Virus record (IMG/VR): IMGVR_UViG_3300037193_000209
Coordinates: 1-37,761 of that record
Direction: 5' to 3' (one strand)
From: a virus
Length of the DNA: 37,761 nucleotides
Below, piece by piece: positions 12,919 through 36,016 of the stretch. The stretch's first letter is position 1, and every line of letters begins with the position of its first letter. A model generated the notes under the pieces. It was given only the letters and a program-made list of their open reading frames with translations, did not search any database and was not told the DNA's origin. The translations under genes were made by a program, and so were the position numbers.

Positions 12919-12930
12919 TACTACTATCGC
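12919..12930 (-). promoter_or_regulatory. Dispersed 12-base element, copy 9 (before tape measure)
   Basis: Perfect copy overlapping the GT stop codon (its TAG TAG supplies tandem stops), 22 bases before the tape measure ATG. Confidence 0.75.
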
Positions 12931-13983: not shown

Positions 13984-14562
13984 TTAGACGGGGCGGTTAA
14001 CCAGGCGTCCGATAGCCTTTGTAGGCTGACCGGTCTGAGAGTCAAGTACAGGAGCGCCGGTCTCGTCTGTGTCAGAGAGAAGAGCGGTACCGGTGTAGTT
14101 GAGCAGAAGTCCGTCCTTGTAGGTAGGACCGTCGAAGCTGATTGGCTGGAACTGAACCTTGAAGAGAACGAAGTCCATTACGCGAGGAACACCGTCCTTG
14201 TCCTTGGAAGGTACGCGAAGCAGAACGGGGCGAGACTGCGTGTTCTGCTGACGCTCTTCCCAAAGAGGAAGGGTGTGAGTGTCGTTGTTGCCGGAACCGG
14301 AAGACGTTGCCTTAGAACCGCTCAGTAGGGCGATGGTCTTGAAGGGTACGTAACCCGACTGGATGGTAAGCGTAGCCTTGTTGAACCAGTACCAAGTGCT
14401 GAGCGTGGTGTCATCACCGGTGTTGTCATACGAGTCTGTGTCCAGTTCTAGGGAACCGGAACGGACACCGTAGATGTCACCGTCAGTAGCGTCAGCACCC
14501 GTAGTACCGTCAAGGATTGCGGCGTGGGTAATCGAGAATCCCTCAAAGATTGGGGTAGCCAC
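13984..14562 (-). CDS. Major tail protein (tail tube)
   Basis: 192-aa tail-tube subunit that polymerises around the tape measure. The N-terminus (TPIFEGFSITHAAI) is followed by beta strands, with a Gly/Ser/Asn-rich loop around residue 85 and a beta C-terminal half including VLFKVQFQPISFDG. Its place directly before the G/GT chaperone pair is diagnostic. It starts with GTG at 14562, with AGGAGG 5 bases upstream. An element copy lies 58 bases upstream in an 85-base gap, giving this abundant protein its own putative start of transcription. Confidence 0.85.
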   Translation of the reverse strand: MATPIFEGFSITHAAILDGTTGADATDGDIYGVRSGSLELDTDSYDNTGDDTTLSTWYWFNKATLTIQSGYVPFKTIALLSGSKATSSGSGNNDTHTLPLWEERQQNTQSRPVLLRVPSKDKDGVPRVMDFVLFKVQFQPISFDGPTYKDGLLLNYTGTALLSDTDETGAPVLDSQTGQPTKAIGRLVNRPV

Positions 14563-14620: not shown

Positions 14621-14632
14621 TACTACTATCGC
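14621..14632 (-). promoter_or_regulatory. Dispersed 12-base element, copy 8 (before major tail gene)
   Basis: Perfect copy in the 85-base gap, 58 bases before the major tail GTG. Confidence 0.75.
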
Positions 14633-16515: not shown

Positions 16516-16893
16516 TTACTTCTCCAATAGCTTCAGTAGTGCCTTGATGTACAGAGAATCAAGAGCCTTGAGTGGAGCAAAGAAGTCGTGATGCTCATCA
16601 CGAGCCTTTTCATAGATGGCATAGGTGACAGGGTTGTTGATTCCCAGGGAGATACCACCGTAGGAAATCTCTCCGTGCCATTCGTCTCCGATGACCTCAG
16701 AAGAACTCTTACCAGAGGACTTAAGGGATCCTGTGATGACGTGAACTGCTCCCTGTGTGGCCTTGAACCCAGTGGCGAGAATGGAGTCAAGAGCCGCCTT
16801 AGCCTTAGGTCCGGGCAGGGCCTTCAGTCTGGCGAATTCCCTATCCACCGCCTTCCAGTTGCTGGAAATACGGATGCCTATCATGATGGCCAC
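16516..16893 (-). CDS. HK97 gp10-like neck/tail completion protein
   Basis: 125-aa protein with the gp10-like pattern: helical N-terminus with Lys/Ala-rich segment (KAKAALDSILATGFKATQ), then TGSLKSSGKSS, a beta part ISYGGISLGINNPVTYAIYEKAR with the conserved Tyr-Ala, and an HHDFF segment before the last helix. Such proteins join head to tail. The start is uncertain: GTG 16893 has a weak ribosome site; ATG 16884 (three residues shorter) is equally possible. It overlaps the upstream gene by 13 bases, and the next ATG follows its stop by one base. Confidence 0.78.
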   Translation of the reverse strand: MAIMIGIRISSNWKAVDREFARLKALPGPKAKAALDSILATGFKATQGAVHVITGSLKSSGKSSSEVIGDEWHGEISYGGISLGINNPVTYAIYEKARDEHHDFFAPLKALDSLYIKALLKLLEK

Positions 16894-17273
16894 TTACTGG
16901 AGACCGAAGTGTTGTTCACGGTCTCAACAATCTGCACCTCGATGTGGTGCCCTGCTGAATATCCTACGGCCACATCGGGGAGGGTCTTGATATCGAAGAT
17001 CCCCTCCACAGGGCCGGAGACGGCGACTATCCTATCTCCGGCCCTGAGAGGCAGACCTGAGCGGCAGAACATTACCCCGATTCTGTCGGGGATGGCTCCT
17101 GCCTCCTGTGCCGCTGGAACATCCTTTCCGGGTCTCAGAAAGTTCAGATCCAGGCGGCACCGAATAGCGTTGAGAGGAGCATCCTGATCTACCCAGGACA
17201 TCTCAGTGATGCCATCGACACGGGTGCGCGTTAGGCGCTGTACCTTGACAACACTGGAAAACAGGTGATCCAT
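16881..17273 (-). CDS. Head-tail joining protein (head completion/stopper type)
   Basis: 130-aa beta-rich protein in the place of the stopper/head completion protein (SPP1 gp16 class). Features are a central DUF-like beta fold with PLRAGDRIVAVSGPVEGIFDI, common in such joining proteins, which seal the connector after packaging. It starts at ATG 17273 with GAGGAG 6 bases upstream, and an element copy ends 13 bases before the start, so it leads a transcription block. Its 3' end overlaps the next gene by 13 bases. The call is from position and fold pattern. Confidence 0.65.
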   Translation of the reverse strand: MDHLFSSVVKVQRLTRTRVDGITEMSWVDQDAPLNAIRCRLDLNFLRPGKDVPAAQEAGAIPDRIGVMFCRSGLPLRAGDRIVAVSGPVEGIFDIKTLPDVAVGYSAGHHIEVQIVETVNNTSVSSKWPS

Positions 17274-17286
17274 GATTACTCCTCTC

Positions 17287-17298
17287 TACTACTATCGC
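17287..17298 (-). promoter_or_regulatory. Dispersed 12-base element, copy 7 (before joining genes)
   Basis: Perfect copy between the glutaredoxin stop and the 130-aa head-tail joining gene, 13 bases before its ATG and just ahead of its GAGGAG ribosome site. Confidence 0.75.
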
Positions 17299-18505: not shown

Positions 18506-19693
18506 TTACAGAGCCTCCATGATGACATCTGTGCCGTACCAGACGTTTACATAGGGTTCTACGTAGTTCTCGGTAGTAGCTCCCGAACCGATGCGGTAAT
18601 AGTGACGAGATTCACTCGGAGGGGATGAATTGATGACTGACTCTGCCAGGTAGAGGTCTTCTCCATCGGACTGCTGTACAGCTTGTGCGGTCAGTGCGTT
18701 TGACGCATTCAGATACATTCCGTTGTCAGTCGTGTAGCCGATCCAGATAGGGTTTTCGACAAGGAATGGGGTATCAAAGATTACATCATTCCAACCGTCA
18801 TTCAGACCGGTGAGAACTTTAGATCGAGTAGGGGTGGTGGCAAGATCTGGCGAAGCGCTAGAAGCTGGAGCGTACATCACTGCGGTCCAGGTACCTGAGA
18901 CCGTGATTCCGACAGGCTTGTAGATTCTCATACCCAGGATGTTTCTAGGGGTTCCGCCGCTGATGTAGAAGCCGGTCGCAACCGTGATAGAAGGAGTTCC
19001 GTCCGTAGCCAGGGTGGGCTCTGCGGGAGGTGCGCTAAATACAGACGTTCCGGTTGTTGGCCCCACTACCACGTCAGCAGGAGCTACATCCCCGGAGAAG
19101 ATCTGAGAGTCAGATCCATCGGCATTGGTGGCAGAAACCGTCAAGCTGTAAGGTCCCTCAGAAGTTGGGGTACCGGAAAGAACTCCAGAGCTAGACAGAG
19201 TAAGTCCTGGAATGGATCCCGAGGTAATCGTCCAGGATGTGGGAGAGTTGCTGGCGACTAGAGTCTGGGAGAAGGAAGTTCCTACCTTGAGAGCGCTCAA
19301 GGAGGTAGTGCTGATGACTGGAGGAGTTGAAGGAACTGGAGCGGCGGCAGAGAACCATAGATCGCCGTCTATCCAATTGGTAGGCTCGGTCTCTCCTCCC
19401 AGCCAGATCACTAGTGGGGCATCTGGGCGTGCTTCATCCCCGGTGACAACCTGCACGCGAGCAATTCCAGGTACTCCGGGCTCTCCTTGGATACCCTGAG
19501 GTCCGGGCTCTCCTTGGATACCCTGAGGTCCGGGCTCTCCGGAGGAGGTGCTACTGCCGATGGCGGGGAGAGCACTCCATTGGGTCTCTCCATCACCGAT
19601 CTTCAAAATGTTGTTTTCAGAATCCCAACCGGGCTCTCCATCTGCGAGAACGTAAGCAGGGGTAGGGGTTCCGCGACGAAACACTAGTGGCAT
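18506..19693 (-). CDS. Collagen-like tail/head fibre with Ig-like domain
   Basis: 395-aa fibre. Residues 1-45 form the small domain common at phage fibre N-termini (FRRGTPTPAYVLADGEPGWD, then KIGDGETQWSALP). Next comes a short collagen-like Gly-x-y run with two exact 9-residue repeats (GPQGIQGEP), then a putative Ig-like (He_PIG) domain around residues 125-205 (ISGTP-type motif as GVLSGTPTSEGPYSLTVSATNADG). A C-terminal beta domain follows (about 215-395, DUF4082-like). It probably trimerises and binds a surface glycan. It starts at TAATG shared with the connector stop, with GGAGG upstream. It sits between connector genes rather than with the other tail fibres, and the next gene is a glycanase; together they look like a host-interaction cassette. 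Confidence 0.78.
   Translation of the reverse strand: MPLVFRRGTPTPAYVLADGEPGWDSENNILKIGDGETQWSALPAIGSSTSSGEPGPQGIQGEPGPQGIQGEPGVPGIARVQVVTGDEARPDAPLVIWLGGETEPTNWIDGDLWFSAAAPVPSTPPVISTTSLSALKVGTSFSQTLVASNSPTSWTITSGSIPGLTLSSSGVLSGTPTSEGPYSLTVSATNADGSDSQIFSGDVAPADVVVGPTTGTSVFSAPPAEPTLATDGTPSITVATGFYISGGTPRNILGMRIYKPVGITVSGTWTAVMYAPASSASPDLATTPTRSKVLTGLNDGWNDVIFDTPFLVENPIWIGYTTDNGMYLNASNALTAQAVQQSDGEDLYLAESVINSSPPSESRHYYRIGSGATTENYVEPYVNVWYGTDVIMEAL
19477..19540 (-). repeat. 27-bp tandem repeat encoding collagen-like units
   Basis: Two exact 27-base copies (19477-19503 and 19504-19530) and the first 10 bases of a third. Each codes for the 9 residues GPQGIQGEP. Exact DNA identity points to recent slippage duplication, which would change fibre shaft length. 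Confidence 0.88.
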
Positions 19694-20308: not shown

Positions 20309-20935
20309 TTAGAGGTTTACTACTGGAGCCTGAACGTGGTTGGTCTTGCTCTCAAGACCTGGCTCCTCATAGGTCTTCTTGCCGGGCCATGGTCCCTTAC
20401 GGAACTTGACAACGCCCCAGCGCTGAACCTGATCATCCTCAGAAAGCTCAAGCCACGACTGACCCTGACGGTTTCTCGTCTGATCGTAAGCCTTGGGACC
20501 GAAAACTGCTTCCTGACCGCGATACCAGATGCGTCCCTGTGCCGATACACCATCTACGAGGAAGTGAATGAGGATTCCACCTTCAACGTTCTCCTCATAC
20601 TCCACAGGAACTTCATCGGACTTTCCACGGGTGCGGGCAAGCTCATCCTGAAGCTGGCGAATCTGCCTCTGCTCCGGAGTCAGTTCAGACTCTGGGACAG
20701 GACGTGCAGTCTCCTTAGACTGAGCTACCTCTTCACGCGCCTTGGCGAGTTCTGCACGGAGGGCTTCAATGGTCTTCTGCTCTTCAGTCTGCTCGGGTGC
20801 AGTGTCTTCCTTGACTCCCTCATCAGGAGTCTGAGAGTCGGACTCAGCGGGGGTAACATCGTCAAAACTCAGTAGATCTTCAGCCTTGACATCCTGGGCA
20901 GGAACAGTGGCGTTAGTGGTTTTTCTAGCAGGCAT
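20309..20935 (-). CDS. Virion-type protein with coiled coil, unknown role (208 aa)
   Basis: A long acidic disordered N-terminus (about 1-50) is followed by a coiled-coil stretch (about 50-105, Glu/Lys/Arg rich) and a compact C-terminal domain (about 108-190) with strands such as GGILIHFLVDGVSAQGRIWYRG and RWGVVKFRKGPWPGKKTY. Proteins of this kind occur just after the capsid gene in actinobacterial phages; the function is not established. The ribosome site before the ATG is weak (no clear AGGAGG), unlike its neighbours. It is the first gene after the capsid terminator and has an element copy 28 bases upstream. Could be a minor head or head-tail assembly protein. Confidence 0.72.
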   Translation of the reverse strand: MPARKTTNATVPAQDVKAEDLLSFDDVTPAESDSQTPDEGVKEDTAPEQTEEQKTIEALRAELAKAREEVAQSKETARPVPESELTPEQRQIRQLQDELARTRGKSDEVPVEYEENVEGGILIHFLVDGVSAQGRIWYRGQEAVFGPKAYDQTRNRQGQSWLELSEDDQVQRWGVVKFRKGPWPGKKTYEEPGLESKTNHVQAPVVNL

Positions 20936-20963: not shown

Positions 20964-20975
20964 TACTACTATCGA
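20964..20975 (-). promoter_or_regulatory. Dispersed 12-base element, copy 6 (after capsid terminator)
   Basis: 11/12 copy (first base T instead of G). It lies 28 bases before the 208-aa gene and about 70 bases after the capsid terminator, where transcription must restart. Confidence 0.72.
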
Positions 20976-21082: not shown

Positions 21083-22120
21083 TTACGCGCCGACGTTGAA
21101 GTAGGCGAACTGCTCTGGGCGGTTTAGAACTGGGAGCATGTTCCATTCAAGAAGATACTGGCGACCAGAAGGATCCTTGTCCTGCCAGGTCTTGGCGAAC
21201 TTACCCGTGAAGCCCTGAGGAGCCTCAAGGTCAGCGGTTGGTCCCTCGACAAGCTCGAAAGGACGACCCGCGGTGAAGTTACCGATGATGATGTGGTCAT
21301 CCTCAAGGAACTTCTGCTCAGCACCTGGATCGGTAGGAGCGTCCGTGTATGCGGCACCAGCGGCGTCGAATACGGAATCCTGGATCTTCCAGTCCAGACC
21401 GAGGAATCCAGGTAGTACGCCCTCACGGTAGTACTGATCCTTCATGCGGTCGGAGAGGAGGACGGCAGGAGCGGTACCGGCGTGAGCGAACGAATCGAAG
21501 ATGTAGGAAATCGTCTCTTCGTTAGCGTAAGCCTCGGTAGCGGCAACCTGTCCGTCACGGAGGATGAGGCGCTTCAGAGTACGAACATCAGCGATGATCT
21601 GCTCTGGGGTAGCCTCAGCCCAACCACCGGTTACGGAGGTGGATCCCTTGTGGGAGGCTGGCATCTTGTAGTCAACGCTAATAGCAGGAGCGTCACCGTT
21701 CTCAGGGATGTCAAGAGCACCGGTGAACATCTGCCAAATGAGATATTCGGCAAAGTTGTCGAAGCGGGTGTTGAGGTCCGTAATCTCCTGGAGAACGGCA
21801 CGCTCAGCGTTTACCTTGGCGAACTCACCTGGGGTGCGTAGCCAGTAAAGGGTCGTAGGTTCGAATACCTTCTTCTCACGGAGGTAGACGAAGCTAGCGG
21901 CCTCGGTCGAACGTCCGAGGCGAGGCACGATGTGGGCCTCAGAGTTAGGAACGTTAGGACGGGCGATGGTGCGGCTACCACGGATTACGTCCCACTGAGC
22001 CGTTGGGAACGGATGTGGCTTCCTGCTGATGCGGTTAAGCATCGTCAGGGTCTCCGGTGCGGTGAACTTCTCAACCACACCCAACAGCACCGTAGGCTGG
22101 AAGAGTGAAATGTCAGGCAC
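21083..22120 (-). CDS. Major capsid protein
   Basis: 345-aa coat protein of the lambda gpE-like HK97-fold family, forming the icosahedral shell. The N-terminus (FTAPETLTMLNRI), the P-domain region and the segment FDNFAEYLIWQMFTGALDIP are family-like, and the length is close to lambda gpE. It starts with GTG at 22120, with TAGGAG 6 bases upstream. It appears to have its own transcription unit: an element copy lies 121 bases upstream, and a strong intrinsic terminator (UUCG-capped 7-bp stem plus T run) starts 15 bases after the stop. A monocistronic unit fits a protein needed in hundreds of copies. No sign of truncation. Confidence 0.92.
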   Translation of the reverse strand: MPDISLFQPTVLLGVVEKFTAPETLTMLNRISRKPHPFPTAQWDVIRGSRTIARPNVPNSEAHIVPRLGRSTEAASFVYLREKKVFEPTTLYWLRTPGEFAKVNAERAVLQEITDLNTRFDNFAEYLIWQMFTGALDIPENGDAPAISVDYKMPASHKGSTSVTGGWAEATPEQIIADVRTLKRLILRDGQVAATEAYANEETISYIFDSFAHAGTAPAVLLSDRMKDQYYREGVLPGFLGLDWKIQDSVFDAAGAAYTDAPTDPGAEQKFLEDDHIIIGNFTAGRPFELVEGPTADLEAPQGFTGKFAKTWQDKDPSGRQYLLEWNMLPVLNRPEQFAYFNVGA

Positions 22121-22241
22121 TGGATTCTCCTAAGGTAGAAATGCCTATCTACAGGGTCTCAGCGACATTTACAATGTCCGGTCTGCACCACTCCCGAGGG
22201 AGTCACTAGGTTGACCTAAGTTTGAGTTTTGGACTTACGTA

Positions 22242-22253
22242 GTCTACTATCGC
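22242..22253 (-). promoter_or_regulatory. Dispersed 12-base element, copy 5 (before major capsid gene)
   Basis: Core GCGATAGTAG perfect. It lies 121 bases before the capsid GTG and just downstream, in transcript direction, of a 9-bp hairpin at 22284-22307. Confidence 0.72.
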
Positions 22254-22773: not shown

Positions 22774-23295
22774 TTAAGCCTTGACCGTGAGGCCAGCGGC
22801 TTCACCAAGAGCGGATAGACGGGCAACCTCACCGACTACAACTTCATCGTGGGTCTCTTCCTTGAACTCCTGGCCCTTCTCGGCAGAGAGTTCTACGATT
22901 GGCTTCTCAGGAAGAAGCTCATCGAAGAGTTCCGCGTTGGAAAGCAGAAGCTTGAGGCTGGAGTCACGCTTGGCTGGGGTGATGAAACCGGAGGCAACCA
23001 GTTCATCAACTCGCTTCTCAGCCTTGGCGGTAGCGGCATCCTGAACCAGGGTGTCAACCTTGGCGGATAGTTCAACATTGGTGTCTACAATGCTGGCTAC
23101 GGCGGCTACAATGTCCTCGGTTCCCGAAGCATCGTCAGCACTGAGCTTGAGTACGCCAGAGTTAGAGAGCTTGTCCTGAAGCTCTGCGGAGAGCTTAGCA
23201 AAGTCGCCAGCGCGTGCCGCCGCCTGCTGTAGCTCAGGAATGTCGATGCCGTGCTCGTCGCGTGCGACAGCAATCAGCTCGTCAAGATCCATCAT
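22774..23295 (-). CDS. Nested scaffold protein (internal start in protease gene)
   Basis: In-frame internal gene giving 173 aa that begins MMDLDELIAVARDEHG, identical to residues 190-362 of the protease fusion. The start is supported by AAGGAG with 6 bases to the first of two adjacent ATG codons, the best ribosome site in the reading frame. A perfect copy of the dispersed 12-base element lies 47 bases upstream, inside the protease linker, where it is read as Asp-Ser-Ser. The arrangement parallels lambda C/Nu3, in which scaffold is made from an internal start of the protease gene. The product would be an internal scaffold needed in many copies per procapsid. It is probably read through to the decoration gene, which has no element of its own. 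Confidence 0.8.
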   Translation of the reverse strand: MMDLDELIAVARDEHGIDIPELQQAAARAGDFAKLSAELQDKLSNSGVLKLSADDASGTEDIVAAVASIVDTNVELSAKVDTLVQDAATAKAEKRVDELVASGFITPAKRDSSLKLLLSNAELFDELLPEKPIVELSAEKGQEFKEETHDEVVVGEVARLSALGEAAGLTVKA

Positions 23296-23862
23296 AGGAT
23301 TCTCCTTAGTTGTTTTGGCGGCGGTCAATACGACTGCCTTACTACTACTATCGCTCGCAGATGCGGCGATTACTTCCTGGAAATCATCCAGGTCTGTCAG
23401 GTGCGGTCTGTTGGTGATCGCAACGTGCAGAAGAGTTGGTCCCGCCTTGGTGTTTGTGCGGGTATCGGTGTAATCCAGGGAGAGCATTGCAGAAGCTCCA
23501 AGAAGCGTCTTGCCTAGCTTCTGAGCGGCAACTTCATCTCTTGCATCGATGACGGCATAAGCCTTTCCGTCCTCGACCTCTAGTCCCACGACTTCACCTA
23601 TATTGCGGAAGGGGTCCTCAGAGTGGGCGTTGTTGTCACCTACGACCGGGGTCTGAACGATGGGGGTGACCTTCTTCTCGAAGTTCTCCGAAAGCTTCGC
23701 TAGGAACTCGTCGGTGATTTCGACCTTGCCACCCTTGATTCCAGGATAGAAGAGGGTTCCCTTGGACAGGATGTGCTTGCGGAACAACTTTCCCGACTTG
23801 GTGCGCGAAAGTGCGACAAAGGAGTCATCCTCGCCGGGTACGTAGACTAGATCATCGCTCAT
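22774..23862 (-). CDS. Capsid maturation protease with C-terminal scaffold
   Basis: A 362-aa fusion: about residues 1-165 are a prohead protease and about 190-362 a helical, acidic scaffold. The protease part has NNAHSEDP (H80), GASAMLSLDY (S124 or S127) and LLHVAITNRPHL, the last much like the end of Mu gpI-type protease domains. The scaffold part is coiled-coil-like and rich in Ala, Glu and Asp. The ATG at 23862 has no Shine-Dalgarno sequence: the 12-base element ends 3 bases before it, and an in-frame TGA lies further upstream with no other good start between. It may be translated from a leaderless message. An internal ATG at 23295 with a strong ribosome site would give free scaffold. The protease cleaves scaffold during head maturation in this family. 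Confidence 0.88.
   Translation of the reverse strand: MSDDLVYVPGEDDSFVALSRTKSGKLFRKHILSKGTLFYPGIKGGKVEITDEFLAKLSENFEKKVTPIVQTPVVGDNNAHSEDPFRNIGEVVGLEVEDGKAYAVIDARDEVAAQKLGKTLLGASAMLSLDYTDTRTNTKAGPTLLHVAITNRPHLTDLDDFQEVIAASASDSSSKAVVLTAAKTTKENPMMDLDELIAVARDEHGIDIPELQQAAARAGDFAKLSAELQDKLSNSGVLKLSADDASGTEDIVAAVASIVDTNVELSAKVDTLVQDAATAKAEKRVDELVASGFITPAKRDSSLKLLLSNAELFDELLPEKPIVELSAEKGQEFKEETHDEVVVGEVARLSALGEAAGLTVKA
23343..23354 (-). promoter_or_regulatory. Dispersed 12-base element, copy 4 (inside protease, before nested scaffold)
   Basis: Perfect 12-base copy within the protease reading frame, 47 bases before the internal scaffold ATG. Here it is translated as part of a Ser-rich linker, so coding need alone does not explain it. 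Confidence 0.75.
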
Positions 23863-23865
23863 GTT

Positions 23866-23877
23866 TACTACTATCGC
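23866..23877 (-). promoter_or_regulatory. Dispersed 12-base element, copy 3 (before protease)
   Basis: Perfect 12-base copy only 3 bases before the protease ATG, with no ribosome site between. If GATAGT in it acts as a -10 box, transcription would begin at about the ATG, giving a leaderless message. Confidence 0.75.
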
Positions 23878-24155: not shown

Positions 24156-24465
24156 GGTAACCCTCACCCTTCAAGAACTTGATGTAGGCATCACGACGGT
24201 CTTCTGGTAGCTGTCTAAGAGCCCAGCGTCCCTTATTTGAGGTGGAGACAATCCACTCATCTTCCTTCTCTTCAATTCCTGTTACGAAGAGGGTGAGATT
24301 CATGGAAGGGTCTGGGATCAGTAGTAGTACAGCTAGTTCGTCATTCTCTGGTTCGAAGAACCTGAGAAGAACGGATCCGCTGAAATCTCCTACCTCGCTG
24401 ACAGCCAGGGCTACATTCTTGAAAAACTGCTTCGACTTCTTCTTTAGGTCATCTGCCTGATTCAT
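24148..24465 (-). CDS. Unknown small protein coupled to giant gene (105 aa)
   Basis: I do not recognise this protein. It has 105 aa with a basic amphipathic N-terminal helix (KKKSKQFFKNVALAV), then a beta-rich core (SVLLRFFE, LAVLLLIPD, LTLFVTGIEE, EWIVST) and a C-terminal helix; there are no transmembrane segments. The ATG overlaps the stop of the 2853-aa gene by 4 bases (ATGA) and has GAAGG 6 bases upstream, so translation is coupled to the giant protein. That coupling suggests a partner, chaperone or immunity role for the giant protein, but this is inference from position only. Its stop region overlaps the next gene. Confidence 0.75.
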   Translation of the reverse strand: MNQADDLKKKSKQFFKNVALAVSEVGDFSGSVLLRFFEPENDELAVLLLIPDPSMNLTLFVTGIEEKEDEWIVSTSNKGRWALRQLPEDRRDAYIKFLKGEGYHV

Positions 24466-27400
24466 AGCAAGCCTTCCTTCTTAACCTTCTCGATCATCTT
24501 CTTCAAGTCCTTACGGAAGATCAAACGCTCTTCCACTGGTAGACCTCTGATCGTTTCTAGACCCTGAGCCTTCAGTTTCTGAATCTGTTCTTCTCGGGCA
24601 CTTGCTTCGTAATCATTGAAGATAACGAATTCGATTCCGTCCAAAACAGTGGCTGAATGAGGGGTCTGGGTCTCTCCACCGCCATCCTTGTGGTTGTTGA
24701 CTAGATCCTTCAGATCCGACTGAGTATCGCTCTTTCTAGAATCCAGCTTTCCGTACTGGTCTCCGGTAAGAGAATAGGTACGAGTACGCAGTAGAAGACG
24801 GGGACTAAGCACATAGTTGTTGCTGTTCTTCAGGGTGCCGCCGCTCACCATGCGGGTATAGATCTGATGAGAAGATCCGTTATTCTGGTCGCTCAAAGCT
24901 GAGCTTTGTCCGTATCCTCCACCGGTGAAGATCTTTCCTAGCTGGCGAATTCTCTCCTCACCACCTAGAAGGGCTCCACTTTCGAGTTCTCCTAGACTTC
25001 CGCTGACATTACCGGTGCTATGTGTCAACCACACATCCATATCGAAAATTTCTTGTGCGGAAATGTCAAAGCGCTCCCAGTAGGGCTTACCAGTAGTCAG
25101 TTCTGGGTCATGAAGATTCTGATGATCGAACTTGGGCAGATACCCTTCGGTCTGAATAAGTTCATCAACCTTGTCTCCGAATTCGGCGGACCATAGGTCT
25201 CTCCAGTACTGCACTTCCTCGTCCGGAGTCATGGAAGCAGAAAGATTCTCTAGGAAGTGCTTAGGATCCCCTCCCAGTTCTTCGACCTTCTTCTTCATGG
25301 ATGCATAAGTCTTCTTGAACTTTCCACTGTTTGGGCCATTGTGGTTTCTGTTCTCAAGGACTCCATACATCTCACGCCAGTAGGTGAGTTCGGCATCGGT
25401 GTGATCGGCGGCACGGTTCTCAATACCCATCTCATCCAAGAACTCCTGAATGCGAGCCATAGAAGCGGACAGTTGGCTCGGATCTGCGGCGTTGGGAACC
25501 TTGAAGCTCAGCTTTCCGTGCTGTCCTCTAGCGGTATTGGTGTGGTCAGCATTTCTCCAGTAGATGACCTCACCTGTAGGTAGGGTGGCCTGATATTCGC
25601 TTCCCTTAGTACCACTATCTACTTCTTGTCCTGTGACCGTCTTGACGTTGGTCTTGGCATCAAAGGTACCGGTGCGCTCAAAGGTGGTCATGTTCACCTT
25701 GAAGCTCGCTCCCATCGGAGTAGCAAGCTTCTTGGTACCAGCTTCGATGTTGGACTTCCATCCGGAGGACTTCAAATTCTTGATTTCGTCCTTTTCCAGC
25801 ACTACCACAGATACTCCTGAAGGCTCACTCTTGAGCCACTGACCATTGAACATGGCCGTGTATGAGGCATCTCCTTCAGGGGAAGTAAGCACCTCAAGAT
25901 CAGGAGAAAGATCGATAGGATCGTAGGAGGAAACTATCGGAGAGTTCACCTTGTCAAGGTAAGCCTGATGAACCTCAGAGTACTTTGAGTCGTAGTAATC
26001 CAGCATCAGCTTGTACTGAGCCAGGTGCTCCTTAGGCACTATGGCTCCAGTGCTGAACTTGTACGCCTCCAGGCCGTTTGCAGTGGCATTGGATGGCAGA
26101 TCAGACTTCCACTCGGCAAGTTCCTTGGACAGCTTCTCCTTGGCCTGTTCAAAGGTCTCAATGGTAGAGGTGTTGTATGCCCCATCTACAGAGTGGGTAC
26201 TGATGGTCTTAGCCGCCTGCACCATAGAAGTTCCATAGGTGTCATATGGACCGAACTTGGTGGAGGGGGTTTCAGTTGCCACGTTACCCGCGTGCTTAGT
26301 CCAGAAAGCCAGAGCGTCAGTCTGAGCCTTGGGAGCCAGGAACATCTCTCCCATAACGTGCTCTACTCCGGTGGTCTCTTGCTCTGTCCAAAGAAGGGCA
26401 GTTCCACCGATAATCTGTGAACCACCAATCATGGCGGTCTTTCCGGAAGCCTTAGCCTGGAATACCTGTTCGTGAAGTTCGGGGCTATCCAGTCCGGAGA
26501 TGATTCCTTCCCCAAGGGCGGGGATAACAATCTCCGGAAGTTCTCCGTGACCGGCCTGCTTGTAGAGCTTTGCCCACTCGGCCTCGATCTTCTCTACAAG
26601 CTTGCTCTTCTGATCAGCGAATGCCGCCTTGAGACCTTCCAGATCCTGAGAAACCTTCTTACCGTCGATGGTGTAACTGATGGTCCAGGATTCGCGGTTC
26701 TTGGAGCCTTCCTCGATGAGGTCGAAGAACTTGTTGTCACTCATCTTCTGCATACGTTGAGCATTCTTGCGAATCTTCATGTATGCCGCATCCAGGGTCT
26801 CCTTGGAGACCTGACCGTTCTTGATGGCAGTGTAGAGGCGCGTGTAGACAGTAAGGTTGCCGTCAGGGGCGTTGTGGTCCCAATTCACGGCTCCGAAGTC
26901 CTTGAAGGAGCGAGCCTTATCAATACCTACAGCACGACCGTCAGCCGTCAGAATGATGTTGTCAGCCTTGGTGTCATCATTCTGAAGCATCCAGTCAAGA
27001 AGGTGCTCACCCTCAACGTCAGCAATGAGGTCTGGCGTGATAGTGGAGTAGTCGAACCCGGTCATATCACCGATTCCGTCTACAACATCCTGCATCTGAC
27101 CATAGTGACCGTCCACGTTGACAAGCTTGCTGTCAGCCGTCTTGAATCCGAAAGCACGACCGATCTTGTTACCGGCATGCTCGATTTCCAGGCGGTAGTT
27201 GGACAGCTTGTCTTCGTTATTCCACCACTTGTAGTAATACTTCTTACCGAACTGATCGGTGTAGAAAGCTCCCGGGTGGGATCCCTTAGTCTGACTTCCT
27301 GTCTTGGTGTAGACAGGCTTTAGAAGTTCTGCCTGGTACTCAGCTTCCTTCTGCTCGAAGTAAGCCTGCACAGCCTTAGCGGCCATGGATGTCTCGTAGT

Positions 27401-30400
27401 TTTCCAGTACGCCATCCGTAGGCTCATACCCGTAAGTGGTCTCAAATTGTGCCTTGAGGTCAGCCTTCGTGATCTTGTCAGGATTGTCCTTGTACCAGTC
27501 GAAAGCCTTTTGAGTGTTACCGTAGGCCGTCCAGTTCTGAGGGTAGTCTGTGTCCTCAAACATGCTGTCATAGGACTTTGCCGGAACGATGTTATCCGTC
27601 CAGGAAATGGGGTCGGACAGAGGCGCATCACCATTCTGCTTACGCTGAAGAGCCTTTGCAGAAAGAAGATCTACCTGCCCCTGGTTCTCATTGTTCTTGT
27701 GGTAATGAATCCACAGACGCTTTTCACTGTTAGTGAGGTACGTAGGATTCTGCATCTGTGCAGAGATGAGGTAATTGTTTACCTCATCGAGGGACCAATC
27801 GGTAGGCGTAAGGTTGGACCAATCTCCCTCAACCGTTCCTACAGGCTTCTCTCCGGGTACAGCGGGTGCCCACTTGATCTGATGAGTTTCCTCATTATCA
27901 GGGTATCCGGGGTGTGCATACCCCTTAGGAAGGGACTTTCCTGCCGCAACAGCCGAATTGAATTCAAGGTCATAAGCCTTCTTGAAGTTTCCGTCCTTGA
28001 TTGCCTTCATCCAGTCCAGCTTTGTCTGCTTGGACTTCATGGTTGTAGGAAGCTGACCGATTTCAGTGCCGTCACCGAACATGGCAGAAATCTGCTTAGT
28101 CATGGTGGTCATTTCACCGACAGAAGCGCTGTAATAACCGGGAATTTCAAAAGCAGAAAGGGCTACTGGCTTCTTCGCGGCCCCCATGTCATCGAATTCA
28201 AAGATGGCTGAGGCATTTGACTCCGGAGGAGTAGTGTCTACCGTAGCAAGAAGTGCAGAAAGGTGATCCTGAAGGTACTTCTTATTGTCCTCAATGGTGG
28301 GCGTATCTCCGTATACTTCCTTGATCTTCTCCTTGGCAAGGTTCTGATCCATCTTGTTCAGGCCGTGGGCGGCAAGATTCAGCGTAGATGCATCGGAGGT
28401 GTCCATCGCATTCTTAAACCCTACAAGGTTGGGAATGGTGGTCTCTATACCGAAGTAGGTAACATTACCGGAGTACCCCTTGGGCACAACAGACGTAGCC
28501 GTGGAGTCAAGCAACTTACCCGTGAGGAACTTTGTCTTCAGGGCAGACTTCTTGATTTCTACTGGCTCGGCCTTACCCAAGGCTTCGATCTTGAACTTGC
28601 CCAGATACCAACCATTTAGGTAATGACTGTCAGAATTGACCTCGGATCCGTATTCATTGATCCACTTGCCGTCCTTACGGGTAAGGGTATTTCCCAGGTA
28701 GTTGGACGAAATCACCGCTCCGTCAGGCGCGGACGCGATGAAATCACTATCTGGCTTGGTGCCCACCTTCCACTGTTCCCAAGCCGTGAGCGGCTTGGTG
28801 TGAAGAACCTTGTCTCCGGTTACCTCGTAGATCTGAGCCTTCGTAGACTTAGGACTTCCCAGGTAGTACTTGCCGTCAGGAAGATCGTTGATGTCTCCCA
28901 CCTTCTTGGCGGTGGAGGGGGACTTCTTCAGAGACTCGACAGTGGAGACCTGAGGCGGCTCATTCCAGCCCTGAATCTTGTTCCAGCCCTCGTCCCACTT
29001 CTCCTTGACCTCTTCCACAGTCAGAGCGGTTACCTTGCCCGCAAGACCCTGATAGATACCGGAACCGTCAGAGTTCACATAGATGTGAGTCTTTCCGGTC
29101 TTGGTGAACTTTCCTGTAGGAATGTTGTGAGGGTTCTGAGGAACCTCAGGGGTAAGGATGAACGCGCCGCCCGGAGTAGCCACGGCGGTTGCTACAACAT
29201 CGTCCGAATGAACGCCGTTGAACCCTGCAATGGTCCAACCGTCATCGTGCTTCTGGTAGACGTGACCGTTGCTTCCCTTAGCAATTTGGTACAGAGGGAA
29301 GTTCTTCAGGTCATCTAGAGTCTTCAAAGGCTCCGGGTTAGTGTCTACTCCTGCCTGATTCTTGTCGGCGGTGGAGGTAGAACCGTTGAAGGTGATTTTC
29401 GCCCCATTGATATCAAGGAGACTCTTCATCTCTTCATCAGTGAAGGCATATCCAGTACTTCTGGTCCAGATAGTCTCTCCGCTATCAAGCGTGGACTTGA
29501 CATAATCACGCTCTGTATATGTAATGGAGTTGCTGTAATGAACGGATTCCCCGTCCTTTACAGAGTCAAGATGCTCAGGATTTGAAAGGATGTCTCCCTT
29601 GATAAGCAAAGTTCCTTCAAGAAGCTCCTTCTCCCAGTCGGCAAGCTGTCCATCCTCTGAATCCTCGGAGGTGCTAGGAGCATCTGCGTGCTCATAGCTA
29701 TTACCGAATAGAGACAGTTCCTTCGCAAAGACCTCTGCTGACAATCCATTACCCCAGGAATTTTGGGCCTTCCAGTTTCCCCCTTCAGTCTTCTCGAAGA
29801 TCTGAGTTCCAATCGAGAACTTCTTTCCGACAGGGAACTTATCCAGATCCTCTTCAGTGAGTTCCTTGATCGGCTTGGAGTAGATGTCCTCAGATTCAGA
29901 AGAGTCGTCGGGGGCGTCTACATACTTCAAGTAGTTGCTCTGAGCGGAGGGAATCAAGGCGTCCGTCGAGACAACAGAGCCGTCGCTTTCCCAATTATCC
30001 TCGGACATCTTGGTCCAAGTGTTCTTGGAAGGGAGGTGGTAGACCTTCTGACCAATGCCCATGGCCTTCAGAGCTTCCTCGGATACCTTGTTCTCCGTAG
30101 AAGTCTTTTCAGCCTTCAGGTTTTCGGCCTCCTCGGAAGAGATAGCTCCCATCTCAGCCATCTTGTCCAGAACGTCTGTGGACGAATTATCTCCTCTGTC
30201 AGCTTCTGAAGGAGACTTTCCATCTCCCTCCTTCAGAAGCTGGAACCAGATGCCCTCAAAGAAGCCCTCGTTGATGGTTTCACCATCAGACTCATCTTGC
30301 CAAAGGCCCTCTTCGATCTTGACCCATTCTGGACCGTCATCAAAATATGGGCTGTACTCCTTGAGCACAGTTCCAATTTGCATCTGAGGAGCCTCGTCAC

Positions 30401-33023
30401 CTAGGACAGTGTAGTCCGGATGAGGAGGTTCTGAAGTCTCGCCGCTGTCATCTGAAATAGCCTGAGCGTCAGCATCATTCTCACTAGAAGAAGACTCGTA
30501 ATCCTCAAGCTTCTTCTTCAGAAGGTCAAGGAACTTCTGCTTAGTGATCGTCTTGTCCTTGTTGAACCCAACAATGTCATTGGGAGACAGTTGACCTAGG
30601 GGGTTGCCCTGCTTGTTCAGTTCGGACTTGAAGATCTTGCCCTGGTAGTTCTCCAGGATGTTGATGGCATTCTGAACGTCGGTCTTGGTAAAGTTACCAC
30701 CCGTCACACCGGTTTGCGTGGTCTTAGGCGTACCAGATCCGATACGGATGTCTGCGGGCTCATCAGTCTTCTCAACTACAGCCTCGTCCTCAATACCGAT
30801 TCCGGACTTGAGGTGCGCGATGAGAGCCTTCTTGGGAGACAGGTCAGGGTAGGCTTCCTTAGCCTCAATCTGCACTGTTTCAAGATATTCCGGGTTAGCC
30901 TTCAGAGGGTGCTCATCTGGCAGAGACTTCAGTCCGTACTTGACCTGGAATCCGGTGTGACCCTCTAGGGCAGAGATAGCGGACTCCACGTCCTTCTTCG
31001 TCATGCCCGTATTGCTCTCGTCCAGGCTCTCAAACTGAGGCTTATCGTCTACCTCAGGGGTTTCTTCCTTTGACTTCTTACTAGATGGAAGATGCTTAGC
31101 CTGGATAGAGTCTACAATTGCCTTGGCTTCAGCAATGCCTGCACCGGTTGTTACCTTGGCGATATCAGCATTGAGGTCTTTGAGAACTTCGGTAGTTGCG
31201 TTTATCTTCTTAGTGATGACACCCTTAGAATTCAGGTGCTCAAGTACCTTGTCAATAGTGCTCTGAGGAACCTTGAATCCAGCGTGCTCCTCTGAAGCGG
31301 GCTCATCGTCTACGATCTTGCCGTCAGGGACATAGCCATCGTAGGGATCGGAAGGCTTCTCAGCCTTAGCCTTCTTCTTAGTAGCAATGTAGTAAGTCGC
31401 AGAATCATCACCTAGAAAGTCTTCAGGCTGCCACATGAAGTTAGTTGTTCCCGAAGAATAGGTGCTGTCCTCGTTCTTGATAAAGAAAAGAGGGTCTACG
31501 GAATCATTGAAGACTAGTGCGTCTCCGGGCTCTAGGGCGTCCAACTGCTCTATAGAGCTAAGCATGCCCTGGGTCTCGAATCCCTCGAACTCAGGGAGTT
31601 CTTCCGTATCGGGAGCCTTGTCAGAAGATGTTGTCTCATCTTCTTCGGAGTCGTCAGGCTCTGGAGAAACCTTCGGCTCAGGTGCTGGAGCTTCCTCAGC
31701 CTTAGGAGGCCCCTGGCGGATGACCCGCTGACGGTCTTCTTCCTTCTCTACAGGCTGACTCTTCTTGGACTCCTGCTCCGCATCCTCGGGCGTCCAAGGC
31801 TCCTTGGAAATGAAGCCTTGGCGGGCAGAATGAGCTACATCAGTGGTGGAGTAGGAAGTACCGTCCTTGGAATACCACTGATCACGCTCCTTCTCCAGGG
31901 GGCCTAGCTTGTCGTGATAGAGAACAGCAAAGTTATCAGCCTGGAAGACATCCTTTTCAGAATCGGCAAGATTGGCCTTAGCAATCTCTTTCTGAGATTG
32001 CTCCTTGGTCTTACCCACAGAAGGGTTACGAAGAGGGTCTGACTTTTCGGAGGACTCAGCCTCTTCCTCATTGACATCTTCGGAAAGAAGGGATCCGACA
32101 AGCTTCAGATTTCCAACAGCTACGGGAGTCCCCGTGGCACTGCTAACCCAGGAGTCGTCTTCCTGCTTTGTGAGAATTACGTCATGAAGTTTGAGCTTCT
32201 TGCCTGCTGGGAAGTTGTTCAGCGTCTCTTCTAGCTCCTCTGGGGTCATCGAAGAGAAGTCAGTCTGCTCCGGGGAAGCTCCAGAGGTGAGGTCGAACCC
32301 ACCGTTGTCAAACAGGGGCTGAAGATCGTCGTCCGTGAGGGTGACTCCTAGATCCTCATTGATCCAGGTGTTTTCGGAGTTCTTCGTGAAGACGGACTGA
32401 CCATCCTTGCTTAGGACAGAACCCTGCTTTTCGTCAGAGAGCTTCTTCGACTCCTTGACATCGAACTCCTCGACCGTGTAAAGGTCATCTGAGCCCTCCA
32501 GCGAAGAGAACTTGTTCTTGAGGACAGGCTGGAGATATTCAGGAACTTCTACCTCGCCCTCCTCATTGAAAGCGTGGACAGTACCATCCGGGTCCAGAAC
32601 ATACGCCATGTTGGCGTTGTTCTTGGGACGGATCAGCTTGGAGTTGAGGGGTGCAGAGAATGAAGATGCACCGACCTTGAAGGAGTTGGGTCCAGATAGG
32701 GAGGGAGTCTTGACAGCAACCTGACCGGGAGTGCTGTTGTAGTTACTGGAATCACTAGCCTTCTGTCCGGGATTGATCTTTCCCGTCTGAGGATTCTGCG
32801 AGGCTACATTCTTGGGAGCGGAAGCAGACTTGGGAGTAGCTGACTTAAGCGCGCCCTTAGGAAGCTTGCCGCCGTTCTTTGCCTTGGCGGCATCTTCCAT
32901 GTCCTTGGTGATGATCGTGCCAATGGGCTGACCAAAGACCTGAGCACCCTCAGGGGTGGCGACACGACGAATACGGTTGGCCGCGAGTTCAATGAACTCT
33001 TCCTCAGACAGGAACTGGGTCAC
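24462..33023 (-). CDS. Giant multidomain virion/effector protein (2853 aa)
   Basis: No known single family spans this protein. It starts at GTG 33023 with TAGGAG 5 bases upstream. Residues about 18-37 hold TPEGAQVFGQPIG, shared with the portal tail. Residues about 110-1490 are acidic, low-complexity linkers alternating with many degenerate units of roughly 50 residues, each with a G-h-h strand and a conserved Trp (for example EGGNWKAQN, DDGWTIAGF, EDNWESDGS), plus helical modules. Residues about 1900-2110 look kinase-like: GKKYYYKWW with K1932, then LDWMLQNDDTKADN (D2016, D2021, N2022) and GIDK (D2035), as in HipA/PI3K-like kinases. The last 190 residues have LTHST (H2668), SSHQIYTR (Y2722) and GIEFVIF (E2798), possibly an ADP-ribosyltransferase H-Y-E triad. 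Placed among head genes, it is probably packaged and injected. The domain calls are inference from motifs; that the gene is real is certain. Confidence 0.9.
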   Translation of the reverse strand: MTQFLSEEEFIELAANRIRRVATPEGAQVFGQPIGTIITKDMEDAAKAKNGGKLPKGALKSATPKSASAPKNVASQNPQTGKINPGQKASDSSNYNSTPGQVAVKTPSLSGPNSFKVGASSFSAPLNSKLIRPKNNANMAYVLDPDGTVHAFNEEGEVEVPEYLQPVLKNKFSSLEGSDDLYTVEEFDVKESKKLSDEKQGSVLSKDGQSVFTKNSENTWINEDLGVTLTDDDLQPLFDNGGFDLTSGASPEQTDFSSMTPEELEETLNNFPAGKKLKLHDVILTKQEDDSWVSSATGTPVAVGNLKLVGSLLSEDVNEEEAESSEKSDPLRNPSVGKTKEQSQKEIAKANLADSEKDVFQADNFAVLYHDKLGPLEKERDQWYSKDGTSYSTTDVAHSARQGFISKEPWTPEDAEQESKKSQPVEKEEDRQRVIRQGPPKAEEAPAPEPKVSPEPDDSEEDETTSSDKAPDTEELPEFEGFETQGMLSSIEQLDALEPGDALVFNDSVDPLFFIKNEDSTYSSGTTNFMWQPEDFLGDDSATYYIATKKKAKAEKPSDPYDGYVPDGKIVDDEPASEEHAGFKVPQSTIDKVLEHLNSKGVITKKINATTEVLKDLNADIAKVTTGAGIAEAKAIVDSIQAKHLPSSKKSKEETPEVDDKPQFESLDESNTGMTKKDVESAISALEGHTGFQVKYGLKSLPDEHPLKANPEYLETVQIEAKEAYPDLSPKKALIAHLKSGIGIEDEAVVEKTDEPADIRIGSGTPKTTQTGVTGGNFTKTDVQNAINILENYQGKIFKSELNKQGNPLGQLSPNDIVGFNKDKTITKQKFLDLLKKKLEDYESSSSENDADAQAISDDSGETSEPPHPDYTVLGDEAPQMQIGTVLKEYSPYFDDGPEWVKIEEGLWQDESDGETINEGFFEGIWFQLLKEGDGKSPSEADRGDNSSTDVLDKMAEMGAISSEEAENLKAEKTSTENKVSEEALKAMGIGQKVYHLPSKNTWTKMSEDNWESDGSVVSTDALIPSAQSNYLKYVDAPDDSSESEDIYSKPIKELTEEDLDKFPVGKKFSIGTQIFEKTEGGNWKAQNSWGNGLSAEVFAKELSLFGNSYEHADAPSTSEDSEDGQLADWEKELLEGTLLIKGDILSNPEHLDSVKDGESVHYSNSITYTERDYVKSTLDSGETIWTRSTGYAFTDEEMKSLLDINGAKITFNGSTSTADKNQAGVDTNPEPLKTLDDLKNFPLYQIAKGSNGHVYQKHDDGWTIAGFNGVHSDDVVATAVATPGGAFILTPEVPQNPHNIPTGKFTKTGKTHIYVNSDGSGIYQGLAGKVTALTVEEVKEKWDEGWNKIQGWNEPPQVSTVESLKKSPSTAKKVGDINDLPDGKYYLGSPKSTKAQIYEVTGDKVLHTKPLTAWEQWKVGTKPDSDFIASAPDGAVISSNYLGNTLTRKDGKWINEYGSEVNSDSHYLNGWYLGKFKIEALGKAEPVEIKKSALKTKFLTGKLLDSTATSVVPKGYSGNVTYFGIETTIPNLVGFKNAMDTSDASTLNLAAHGLNKMDQNLAKEKIKEVYGDTPTIEDNKKYLQDHLSALLATVDTTPPESNASAIFEFDDMGAAKKPVALSAFEIPGYYSASVGEMTTMTKQISAMFGDGTEIGQLPTTMKSKQTKLDWMKAIKDGNFKKAYDLEFNSAVAAGKSLPKGYAHPGYPDNEETHQIKWAPAVPGEKPVGTVEGDWSNLTPTDWSLDEVNNYLISAQMQNPTYLTNSEKRLWIHYHKNNENQGQVDLLSAKALQRKQNGDAPLSDPISWTDNIVPAKSYDSMFEDTDYPQNWTAYGNTQKAFDWYKDNPDKITKADLKAQFETTYGYEPTDGVLENYETSMAAKAVQAYFEQKEAEYQAELLKPVYTKTGSQTKGSHPGAFYTDQFGKKYYYKWWNNEDKLSNYRLEIEHAGNKIGRAFGFKTADSKLVNVDGHYGQMQDVVDGIGDMTGFDYSTITPDLIADVEGEHLLDWMLQNDDTKADNIILTADGRAVGIDKARSFKDFGAVNWDHNAPDGNLTVYTRLYTAIKNGQVSKETLDAAYMKIRKNAQRMQKMSDNKFFDLIEEGSKNRESWTISYTIDGKKVSQDLEGLKAAFADQKSKLVEKIEAEWAKLYKQAGHGELPEIVIPALGEGIISGLDSPELHEQVFQAKASGKTAMIGGSQIIGGTALLWTEQETTGVEHVMGEMFLAPKAQTDALAFWTKHAGNVATETPSTKFGPYDTYGTSMVQAAKTISTHSVDGAYNTSTIETFEQAKEKLSKELAEWKSDLPSNATANGLEAYKFSTGAIVPKEHLAQYKLMLDYYDSKYSEVHQAYLDKVNSPIVSSYDPIDLSPDLEVLTSPEGDASYTAMFNGQWLKSEPSGVSVVVLEKDEIKNLKSSGWKSNIEAGTKKLATPMGASFKVNMTTFERTGTFDAKTNVKTVTGQEVDSGTKGSEYQATLPTGEVIYWRNADHTNTARGQHGKLSFKVPNAADPSQLSASMARIQEFLDEMGIENRAADHTDAELTYWREMYGVLENRNHNGPNSGKFKKTYASMKKKVEELGGDPKHFLENLSASMTPDEEVQYWRDLWSAEFGDKVDELIQTEGYLPKFDHQNLHDPELTTGKPYWERFDISAQEIFDMDVWLTHSTGNVSGSLGELESGALLGGEERIRQLGKIFTGGGYGQSSALSDQNNGSSHQIYTRMVSGGTLKNSNNYVLSPRLLLRTRTYSLTGDQYGKLDSRKSDTQSDLKDLVNNHKDGGGETQTPHSATVLDGIEFVIFNDYEASAREEQIQKLKAQGLETIRGLPVEERLIFRKDLKKMIEKVKKEGLL

Positions 33024-33110: not shown

Positions 33111-33122
33111 ACCTACTATCGC
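33111..33122 (-). promoter_or_regulatory. Dispersed 12-base element, copy 2 (before giant gene)
   Basis: Core GCGATAGTAG perfect, last two bases differ. It lies 87 bases before the GTG of the 2853-aa gene, in a 105-base AT-richer gap right after the 72-aa gene. Confidence 0.7.
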
Positions 33123-34135: not shown

Positions 34136-36016
34136 TCACTTCTTTCCGGGCTTGTTGAGGTTCTTCATCACTCGAAGGAAGTCACTAGGCTTCCAGGAAC
34201 CTGAGTAGTGGTAGACAGCCTCTCGAAGAGCCTTCATAGCCTTCTGAGCCTCAGCCTTGTTACCGGCGCGCAAGAATCCCTCATACTGCTCCTTGAGAGA
34301 CATCAGGCGCTCCACGGTGACCTTGCGCTTTCCGCCCTCTTCTCCCTTTCCGTGACCCTTAGGAATTTGGGATCCGATGGGAACACCGAAGCGCTCAGCA
34401 CCTTCCTGTGTACGTACCGTGCGGTAGTCACCGGATACAGGACGGGCTAGCTCTAGAAGTTCAGATGCCATATCGAGAAGGGAGTTCTCTGCGGAGAGCT
34501 TGGCGGTCTCTTCTGGAGGAGTAGTTGGTGCAACTGGAGGCTGTCCCGTTACTTGACTCTCGAAGTCGGCAATCTGCTGTTCAGGAGATGGAGCCTGTCC
34601 TGGGAGGATAGGGTTACCCATGGCGTCCTTAGGAAGAGGCTTTCCATCGGCATCCAGACCCTGAACAAGGTTGGCGGCTTCCTTCTCCACTGCCTCACGC
34701 TCCTCGACTGCATCCCAGTCGATTTCGAGGCCCATCTCCTTGGCCATCTTCTTCTCGATTTCACGAATGAACTCGGGAGTGACGGTGGCGCTCTGTCCAG
34801 CCGTGGACAGGGAGTCGAAGGTGTTGTGGATCGTAGCCTTCTGCTCATCCGTCAGTTCAGCCCACTGGAATCTTGGGTACTTTCCGCCCTTGAAGTTCCA
34901 GTCGATGAGACGAGGGATGATGTAGTGATTGATGCTGTTGGCGATGTCATCCATGATGGCGCGAAGCATCAGAATGAACATGGAGTCACCGGGAGCCCCG
35001 AAGCTTACAAGCTTTGCGTCTCCACTGCCGCCACCTGTGTCCTTGTCGAAGAAGTTAGCGAGAACGCTCTTCGACATCTGGTTGTTGTGGTGGTTGATGT
35101 AGTCCAGGAACGCAAAGGATCCACCCTCCTTCAGCATCTCCACCTTGAAGTTCTCAGGAATCATCATCCACTGAGCGATAGCAAGGTTGGAAAGGTTTTG
35201 AGCGAAGACACGCTTCTGCTCAGTCGTGGCGTTGGCGGGAAGAGTGCCTACACGAGTGCCCACAGCGGCGCGCTGAGCCGCAAGGTGAGCAATGTAGTAC
35301 ATCTTGACCTTCTTATCGTAGTGATAGAAGGCGCTCTGGAAGAACGATACACCGTAGTACTTGCGTTCTTCCTCCTGTGCCGCGAAGTAGAATGCGCGAT
35401 CACGAGGAATGTGGATGTCAATGGTCTTACCATCACGGTAGGCGCGCTGACGGAATCCCTCGAAGTGTCCATCCTCATCCTCGACAACGGTGATTGTGTT
35501 GGGCTGACGATATGCCAGCTTGCGGAGGACGTACTTGCCCTTCAGAGGTCCGTAGGTGGCGTAGTCGTATACCTGCTCAAACGGAGCGAAGCCGTCAAAG
35601 AGTCCCTGAAGCAACTGACTCATGAATCTGTGGAAGGTTACGGACATTCCACCCGAAGCGGGAGGAAGAGTGAACTGCTGAGTGATGAACTCAGCTTCAG
35701 CCTCTCCGCCCTCTGCGGGCACGAAAGAGGAGTTACTAAGTGCCGCCTTGAGAGGCAGTGTCAAGAGACGGTAGAGAGCGCGGGCTTGTCCGTCCAAACG
35801 TCGCATGGCGACAAGCTGTGCGACGGTAGGGCCAACCTCTTCGCCCTCTTCGCGCAGAAGCTCTCGTAGAGCCTTGTCCTCACGGGCAGACTTGGACAGT
35901 CCCTCGGAAAAGGGCACAGCAAAAGGAAGATTGCTCTCGACACCTAGCTCGATGCCCCAGTCTTCCTGGGCAGGCTTAGGACTGATATCGAGATTCTTCT
36001 TGTCTTCACCAGCCAT
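34136..36016 (-). CDS. Portal protein
   Basis: Dodecameric ring at the capsid vertex through which DNA enters and leaves and to which the connector binds. The 626-aa length and the position directly after terminase fit. The core around FGAPGDSMFILMLRAIMDD and the following NHYIIPRLIDWNF segment resembles Mu gp29/DUF935-type portals. After about residue 450 comes a Pro/Gln-rich linker and then a basic tail. At about residues 531-550 the tail carries the motif RTQEGAERFGVPIG, echoed in the N-terminus of the 2853-aa protein. The ATG at 36016 overlaps the terminase stop and has a GAGG ribosome site 7 bases upstream. It is followed after 3 bases by the MuF-like gene. Portal identity is confident; the role of the C-terminal tail is unknown. 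Confidence 0.9.
   Translation of the reverse strand: MAGEDKKNLDISPKPAQEDWGIELGVESNLPFAVPFSEGLSKSAREDKALRELLREEGEEVGPTVAQLVAMRRLDGQARALYRLLTLPLKAALSNSSFVPAEGGEAEAEFITQQFTLPPASGGMSVTFHRFMSQLLQGLFDGFAPFEQVYDYATYGPLKGKYVLRKLAYRQPNTITVVEDEDGHFEGFRQRAYRDGKTIDIHIPRDRAFYFAAQEEERKYYGVSFFQSAFYHYDKKVKMYYIAHLAAQRAAVGTRVGTLPANATTEQKRVFAQNLSNLAIAQWMMIPENFKVEMLKEGGSFAFLDYINHHNNQMSKSVLANFFDKDTGGGSGDAKLVSFGAPGDSMFILMLRAIMDDIANSINHYIIPRLIDWNFKGGKYPRFQWAELTDEQKATIHNTFDSLSTAGQSATVTPEFIREIEKKMAKEMGLEIDWDAVEEREAVEKEAANLVQGLDADGKPLPKDAMGNPILPGQAPSPEQQIADFESQVTGQPPVAPTTPPEETAKLSAENSLLDMASELLELARPVSGDYRTVRTQEGAERFGVPIGSQIPKGHGKGEEGGKRKVTVERLMSLKEQYEGFLRAGNKAEAQKAMKALREAVYHYSGSWKPSDFLRVMKNLNKPGKK

Follow-up and report, generated by a model that had tools for sequence, protein, structure and literature searches.

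We analysed a 37.8-kb virus record (hereafter, the window), in which the long genes lie on the minus strand and 97% of the sequence is coding. The minus-strand ORF at 22774-23862 encodes a protein of 362 aa that combines an assemblin-fold protease, a disordered linker and a helical scaffold. This protein passed the Pfam cut-off for PF10123 (Mu-like_Pro, Mu-like prophage I protein) with 29.2 bits against a gathering threshold of 25.2, and 31 of 33 relatives matched the same family at E <= 0.1. In the AlphaFold2 model, residues 23-168 (23359-23796, minus strand) form a beta domain predicted with confidence (pLDDT about 90), residues 167-188 form a disordered linker, and helices follow from residue 193. 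In the fold comparison of the beta domain, the best PDB matches were herpesvirus assemblins, with VZV protease at Z 10.5 (rmsd 2.8 over 115) and PRV pUL26N at Z 10, followed by T4 gp21 at Z 8.3 and unrelated rows at about Z 6. Foldseek on the whole model gave low TM-scores of 0.2-0.4, and the sequence profile of the protein had no significant solved relative, so that fold comparison alone gives one. Residues H80, S124 and H146 are invariant across 33 proteins and follow the order of the assemblin Ser-His-His triad. On the predicted model, the protease domain has the herpesvirus assemblin (S21-like) fold.

In the same frame, a nested ORF at 22774-23295 (minus strand) encodes the putative scaffold of 173 aa, beginning with MMDLDEL. 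The nested start is an ATG pair, ATGATG, read from 23295, and the ribosome-binding site AAGGAG (23302-23307, minus strand) lies ahead of it with a spacer of 6 nt. The nested Met is residue 190, and in the AlphaFold2 model this start coincides with the onset of the helical scaffold after the disordered linker. Sequence and predicted model together show what is expected of a nested pair, namely an in-frame internal start with a ribosome site followed by a helical scaffold. In the Microbacterium phage Magritte, the putative nested scaffold start is the Met of MATKEELIEALK.

Upstream of the nested start, an exact copy of the 12-mer GCGATAGTAGTA lies in frame within the protease ORF at 23343-23354 (minus strand), with 47 nt between the element and ATGATG. 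The codons at this copy are GCG AGC GAT AGT AGT AGT AAG (ASDSSSK), the box spans linker residues 170-174, and the Asp171 codon GAT occupies 23350-23352 (minus strand). The preliminary description had placed the copy in the protease frame, 47 bases before the ATG pair and its well-spaced AAGGAG, and all of these positions proved correct. In codon-preserving shuffles of the window genes, 0.023 occurrences of the 10-mer core GCGATAGTAG were expected per window in coding DNA, and the probability of GAT AGT AGT AGT given DSSS was 2e-4. A chance match as the origin of the embedded copy is ruled out by these shuffles, by the codon probability and by the conservation described below.

The element is not confined to this site. 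GCGATAGTAGTA has six exact copies in the window, all on the minus (coding) strand, and 11 sites were found at up to two mismatches, compared with a mean of 1.3 in shuffles. The shorter form CGATAGTA has 11 copies, nine of which fall in the 3% of noncoding DNA, each 6-124 nt upstream of a gene start. Minus-strand copies lie at 904-915 before ORF 404-853, at 1399-1410 (ACGATAGTAGTA) before ORF 992-1384, at 12919-12930 before ORF 8037-12896, at 14621-14632 before ORF 13984-14562, at 17287-17298 before ORF 16881-17273 (then GAGGAG and ATG), at 20964-20975 (TCGATAGTAGTA) before ORF 20309-20935, and at 33111-33122 (GCGATAGTAGGT) before the 2853-aa ORF 24462-33023. The major capsid gene starts with a GTG at 22120, and a leader of about 120 nt separates this GTG from the element copy at 22242-22253 (minus strand); the copy at 23866-23877 (minus strand) is directly before the protease ATG, where it may serve as a leaderless promoter. 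The remaining two are inside reading frames, namely the linker copy and a minus-strand copy at 36138-36149 (GCGATAGTAGAA) near the 3' end of ORF 36006-37730. The latter, which uses the rare Ile codon ATA, is kept in the relative G001 at 76363 and probably serves as promoter for the gene that follows, 34136-36016. The earlier claim that element, ribosome site and start are arranged as they are between genes holds at the nested start, but not every intergenic copy precedes a ribosome site, since the protease copy adjoins its ATG as CGAT-N10-ATG without one.

Two further features of the window were observed. Parts of the capsid-gene leader (22120-22253, minus strand) are common to the relatives L002 and G001 (AAACTCAAACTTAG..., GTGGTGCAGACCGG), which suggests that this 5' leader is structured and conserved. 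The 2853-aa ORF, which lies immediately upstream of a set of small genes preceding the protease, had no match in PHROG, and the hypothetical gene 17 of Magritte (1991 aa) occupies the same place.

A capsid-protein scan yielded 80 loci, most of them also with a protease-scaffold ORF, and conservation was assessed on 54 nonredundant divergent homologues (<85% nucleotide identity), including the cultured Magritte. CGATAGTA is present at the same linker position in all close relatives, and the embedded box is conserved far beyond them. All 44 homologues that keep the linker Asp encode it with GAT, compared with 386 of 1704 Asp codons overall (23%). Given the codon usage of each genome, the joint probability is about 1e-31, which overstates the certainty because the homologue lineages are phylogenetically related and not independent. 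The preceding codon ends in C in 43 of 44, though it encodes Ala, Ser, Val, Thr, Asp, Gly or His, and of 363 columns it deviates most strongly at the synonymous level (z 11.4), with z 5.6 for the Asp codon. Synonymous conservation at 23343-23354 had been named beforehand as a refutation test for the regulatory reading, and these values represent a clear excess. In a few relatives (such as L008), no recognisable box was found at the protease start or the linker site.

Across the homologues, the box consists of CCGATA and a lineage-specific tail, with the core (G)CCGATA in most relatives and GCGATA in the window clade. CGAT followed by 9-11 nt and the protease start was found in 38 of 54 homologues, compared with a background of 1.9% of ATGs, and 37 of these 38 starts have no ribosome site. 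This spacing corresponds to the geometry of a -10 box and would place the transcript start at or within 1-2 bases of the start codon. Genome-wide counts of CCGAT-N(x)-ATG were uninformative, since in-frame codon patterns interfere. None of 5000 permutations reached the agreement seen within genomes between the box tails at the protease start and in the linker, and the within-genome match exceeds the match with the nearest relative (p 0.005). Where the core has switched, the same form is common to both sites, as in L037 (CCAATGGTA), L050 (CCGAATAC), L009 (CGATACTA) and L062 (CGATACTCC).

The longer relatives showed the same strand preference. In G001 (136.5 kb), 18 copies of [GC]CGATAGTA share one strand, and the single minus-strand copy precedes a minus-strand start; the Magritte box CGATATCC occurs 10 times on one strand and 0 on the other. 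In G001, CGATAGTA boxes also lie 18 and about 33 nt ahead of the tRNA-Thr and tRNA-Trp genes. Because the box stands 9-11 nt before a ribosome-site-free protease start and before tRNA genes, we consider that it acts on transcription. For a strand-specific element found ahead of both tRNAs and leaderless starts, a promoter box is the best interpretation, and this interpretation is sharpened by the leaderless spacing, the tRNA-gene copies and the FliA/WhiG-like sigma genes of the relatives. Together with the synonymous conservation, these features bear out the regulatory role that had been suggested for the element. No -35 TAAA box was detectable across 38-49 aligned sites or within G001, Magritte and the window, and upstream of offset -3 the alignments held no comparable information, whether across genomes or in these three. 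The G001 contig (L122, L128) carries 44 tRNA genes in 136.5 kb, two of them directly preceded by element copies. At L122:19046-19120, a hairpin resembling a terminator, with a T run, lies no more than about 35 nt after an element copy, possibly marking a small RNA.

Regarding the protein that reads the box, a sigma factor containing regions 2 and 4 is encoded in Magritte (gp47) and in the majority of the long relatives. In the NCBIfam scan of such proteins, FliA or WhiG was the best model in 6 of 7 (E 4e-14 to 8e-52), and for the seventh (L114) a general sigma-70/ECF model was best with FliA_WhiG next. The solved FliA and WhiG structures were the top PDB matches for all three phage sigmas tested. 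Since the phage sigmas score 53-176 bits, under the NCBIfam TIGR02479 (FliA_WhiG) cut-off of 189.6 bits, their specificity is inferred. The FliA/WhiG consensus consists of a -35 TAAA and a -10 GCCGATAA (PMC8325347, PMC2859248), and the box core agrees with this -10. No sigma gene was identified in the 37.8-kb window fragment, and the inference rests on the relatives. Both Magritte gp47 and gp60 are annotated only as 'DNA binding protein'. Several of these phages (among relatives G001-G014) appear to have a second, ECF-like sigma, including Magritte gp60, and because of this second sigma the reader can be assigned only as the most likely one, namely host RNA polymerase with a phage-encoded FliA/WhiG-like sigma. 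A variant that leaves the promoter itself intact would have the box read by a host WhiG/FliA-type sigma or by the ECF-like phage sigma. The resemblance of the core to the host flagellar/WhiG box and the presence of the ECF-like gene would suit this variant, but the tails shift together at both sites by lineage, as expected of a co-evolving phage protein rather than a conserved host sigma, and we regard it as rather unlikely.

The nested start is itself widely conserved. When 25 codons downstream of the box were searched for an in-frame ATG or GTG preceded by a ribosome site with a length of at least 5 nt, 50 of the 54 homologues had one, compared with 8% of control windows. The box is typically 36-114 nt upstream of this start. 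It is conceivable that all scaffold arises from translation starting internally on the full-length mRNA, the element being incidental or otherwise employed. The retention of ribosome site and start is what such a mechanism would require, the ORF is a PF10123 member, and phages frequently have scaffolds nested in frame, KS10 being a described protease/scaffold example (PMC2628397). However, internal initiation leaves unexplained both the nucleotide-level conservation 36-114 nt upstream of the start and the tracking of the linker box with the protease-start box of the same genome, and we consider it improbable as the sole source of scaffold.

The promoter reading can also be set against a role of the element in RNA processing or translation, or as a repressor or activator site. 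The strand specificity of the element and its almost constant position ahead of genes would suit such a role, and start-associated repeats are known in other actinophages. On the other hand, the box keeps a fixed 9-11 nt from starts that have no ribosome site, so that there is hardly any RNA 5' of the gene; copies stand ahead of tRNA genes, and the core matches the -10 box of a sigma-28 type carried by the phages themselves, which makes an RNA signal or regulator site quite improbable. A constraint on the peptide, for example a protease self-cleavage site in a linker of a kind that can be cleaved in such fusions, would fit the good conservation of Asp171 and the preceding Ala-Ala-Ser, but it is rejected as the sole cause because the bias is synonymous (GAT and never GAC; NCC/NTC before it alike for Ala, Ser, Thr or Val), and with the linker predicted to be disordered and the same string also intergenic and ahead of tRNAs, it has very little probability.

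Accounting for these alternatives, we consider it likely that a single-box late promoter in the protease/scaffold linker makes a separate scaffold mRNA. The element would be the box by which a phage late promoter is recognised, without a detectable -35 partner, and its CCGATA/GCGATA core resembles the -10 element of promoters of the FliA/WhiG (sigma-28) type. The mRNA started by the copy before the protease gene would have little or no leader and would encode the complete protease-scaffold protein. From the copy in the disordered-linker codons, a shorter, 3'-coterminal mRNA would start about 10 nt downstream, at a predicted position of about 23339-23341. Because this shorter mRNA would carry AAGGAG and the nested ATG, the scaffold may be made separately and probably in excess of the protease fusion. 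In Magritte, where the linker box CGATATCC is at record position 18889, the corresponding transcript starts are predicted at about 18901-18903 for the scaffold and at the ATG 18374 for the protease. In a large family of soil bacteriophages, an embedded signal apparently lets the second half of the protease gene be transcribed alone as a scaffold; elsewhere, such an organisation is best known from herpesviruses. More broadly, it is fairly probable, judging from the genomes compared, that a large actinobacteriophage lineage uses single-box FliA/WhiG-type late promoters whose tails co-diversify in each genome, and that one of these inside the linker of an assemblin-fold protease gives nested 3'-coterminal transcripts, a phage counterpart of UL26/UL26.5.

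If this is true, the phages would provide an example, across very divergent genomes, of the herpesvirus way to make more scaffold than protease. A large group of phages, most of them uncultured, would in addition obtain a defined class of late promoter together with the sigma that probably reads it, and the co-varying sigma/promoter pairs would form a natural series for studies of -10 box specificity. For annotation, these genomes would gain a missing scaffold gene and a map of late transcription. Magritte was the only close cultured relative found, and since the group has this cultured member, the embedded promoter is directly testable. Streptomyces phages such as Araceli match the protease half only, have a separate annotated scaffold gene and showed no box. 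In a search of mainly open-access literature, no conserved promoter embedded in phage protease/scaffold genes was found, nor anything relevant on Magritte.

Among known systems, T4 late promoters are read by the gp55 sigma from a single TATAAATA box. They share with the present element a single -10-like box without a -35, structural genes as targets and a phage sigma, which here is presumed from the relatives, and they differ in the box and in the sigma family. The promoters of the sigma-28 family share the -10 core GCCGATA(A), and the phage sigmas mostly match FliA/WhiG models best. Unlike those promoters, the element has no detected -35 TAAA, its tails are lineage-specific and its spacing is leaderless, and the phage sigmas fall below the subfamily cut-off.

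As for the nested gene, Mu-like phages (I, protease; Z, scaffold) and lambda (C/Nu3) are already known to embed a scaffold in frame within the 3' part of the protease gene. Those scaffolds are usually described as products of translation that starts internally on one shared message, and the conserved promoter-like box ahead of the nested start would distinguish the present arrangement from them; it is this embedded box for which no phage report was found in the literature searched. We consider herpesvirus UL26/UL26.5 a better comparison than lambda C/Nu3. The UL26.5 scaffold gene is nested in frame in UL26 with 3'-coterminal transcripts, and its promoter is inside the UL26 coding region (PMC2949831, PMC4498786). 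Both systems have an assemblin-fold protease fused to a scaffold, the invariant order His...Ser...His, and a nested in-frame 3'-coterminal scaffold with its promoter, here a predicted box, within the protease-scaffold coding region. Unlike UL26/UL26.5, the present system belongs to a phage, would use a bacterial single-box sigma-type promoter, and would translate its scaffold from a ribosome-binding site; no sequence similarity is demonstrated, and shared ancestry of the nested promoter is not claimed. If the box is a promoter, the phage arrangement would work like that of UL26/UL26.5.
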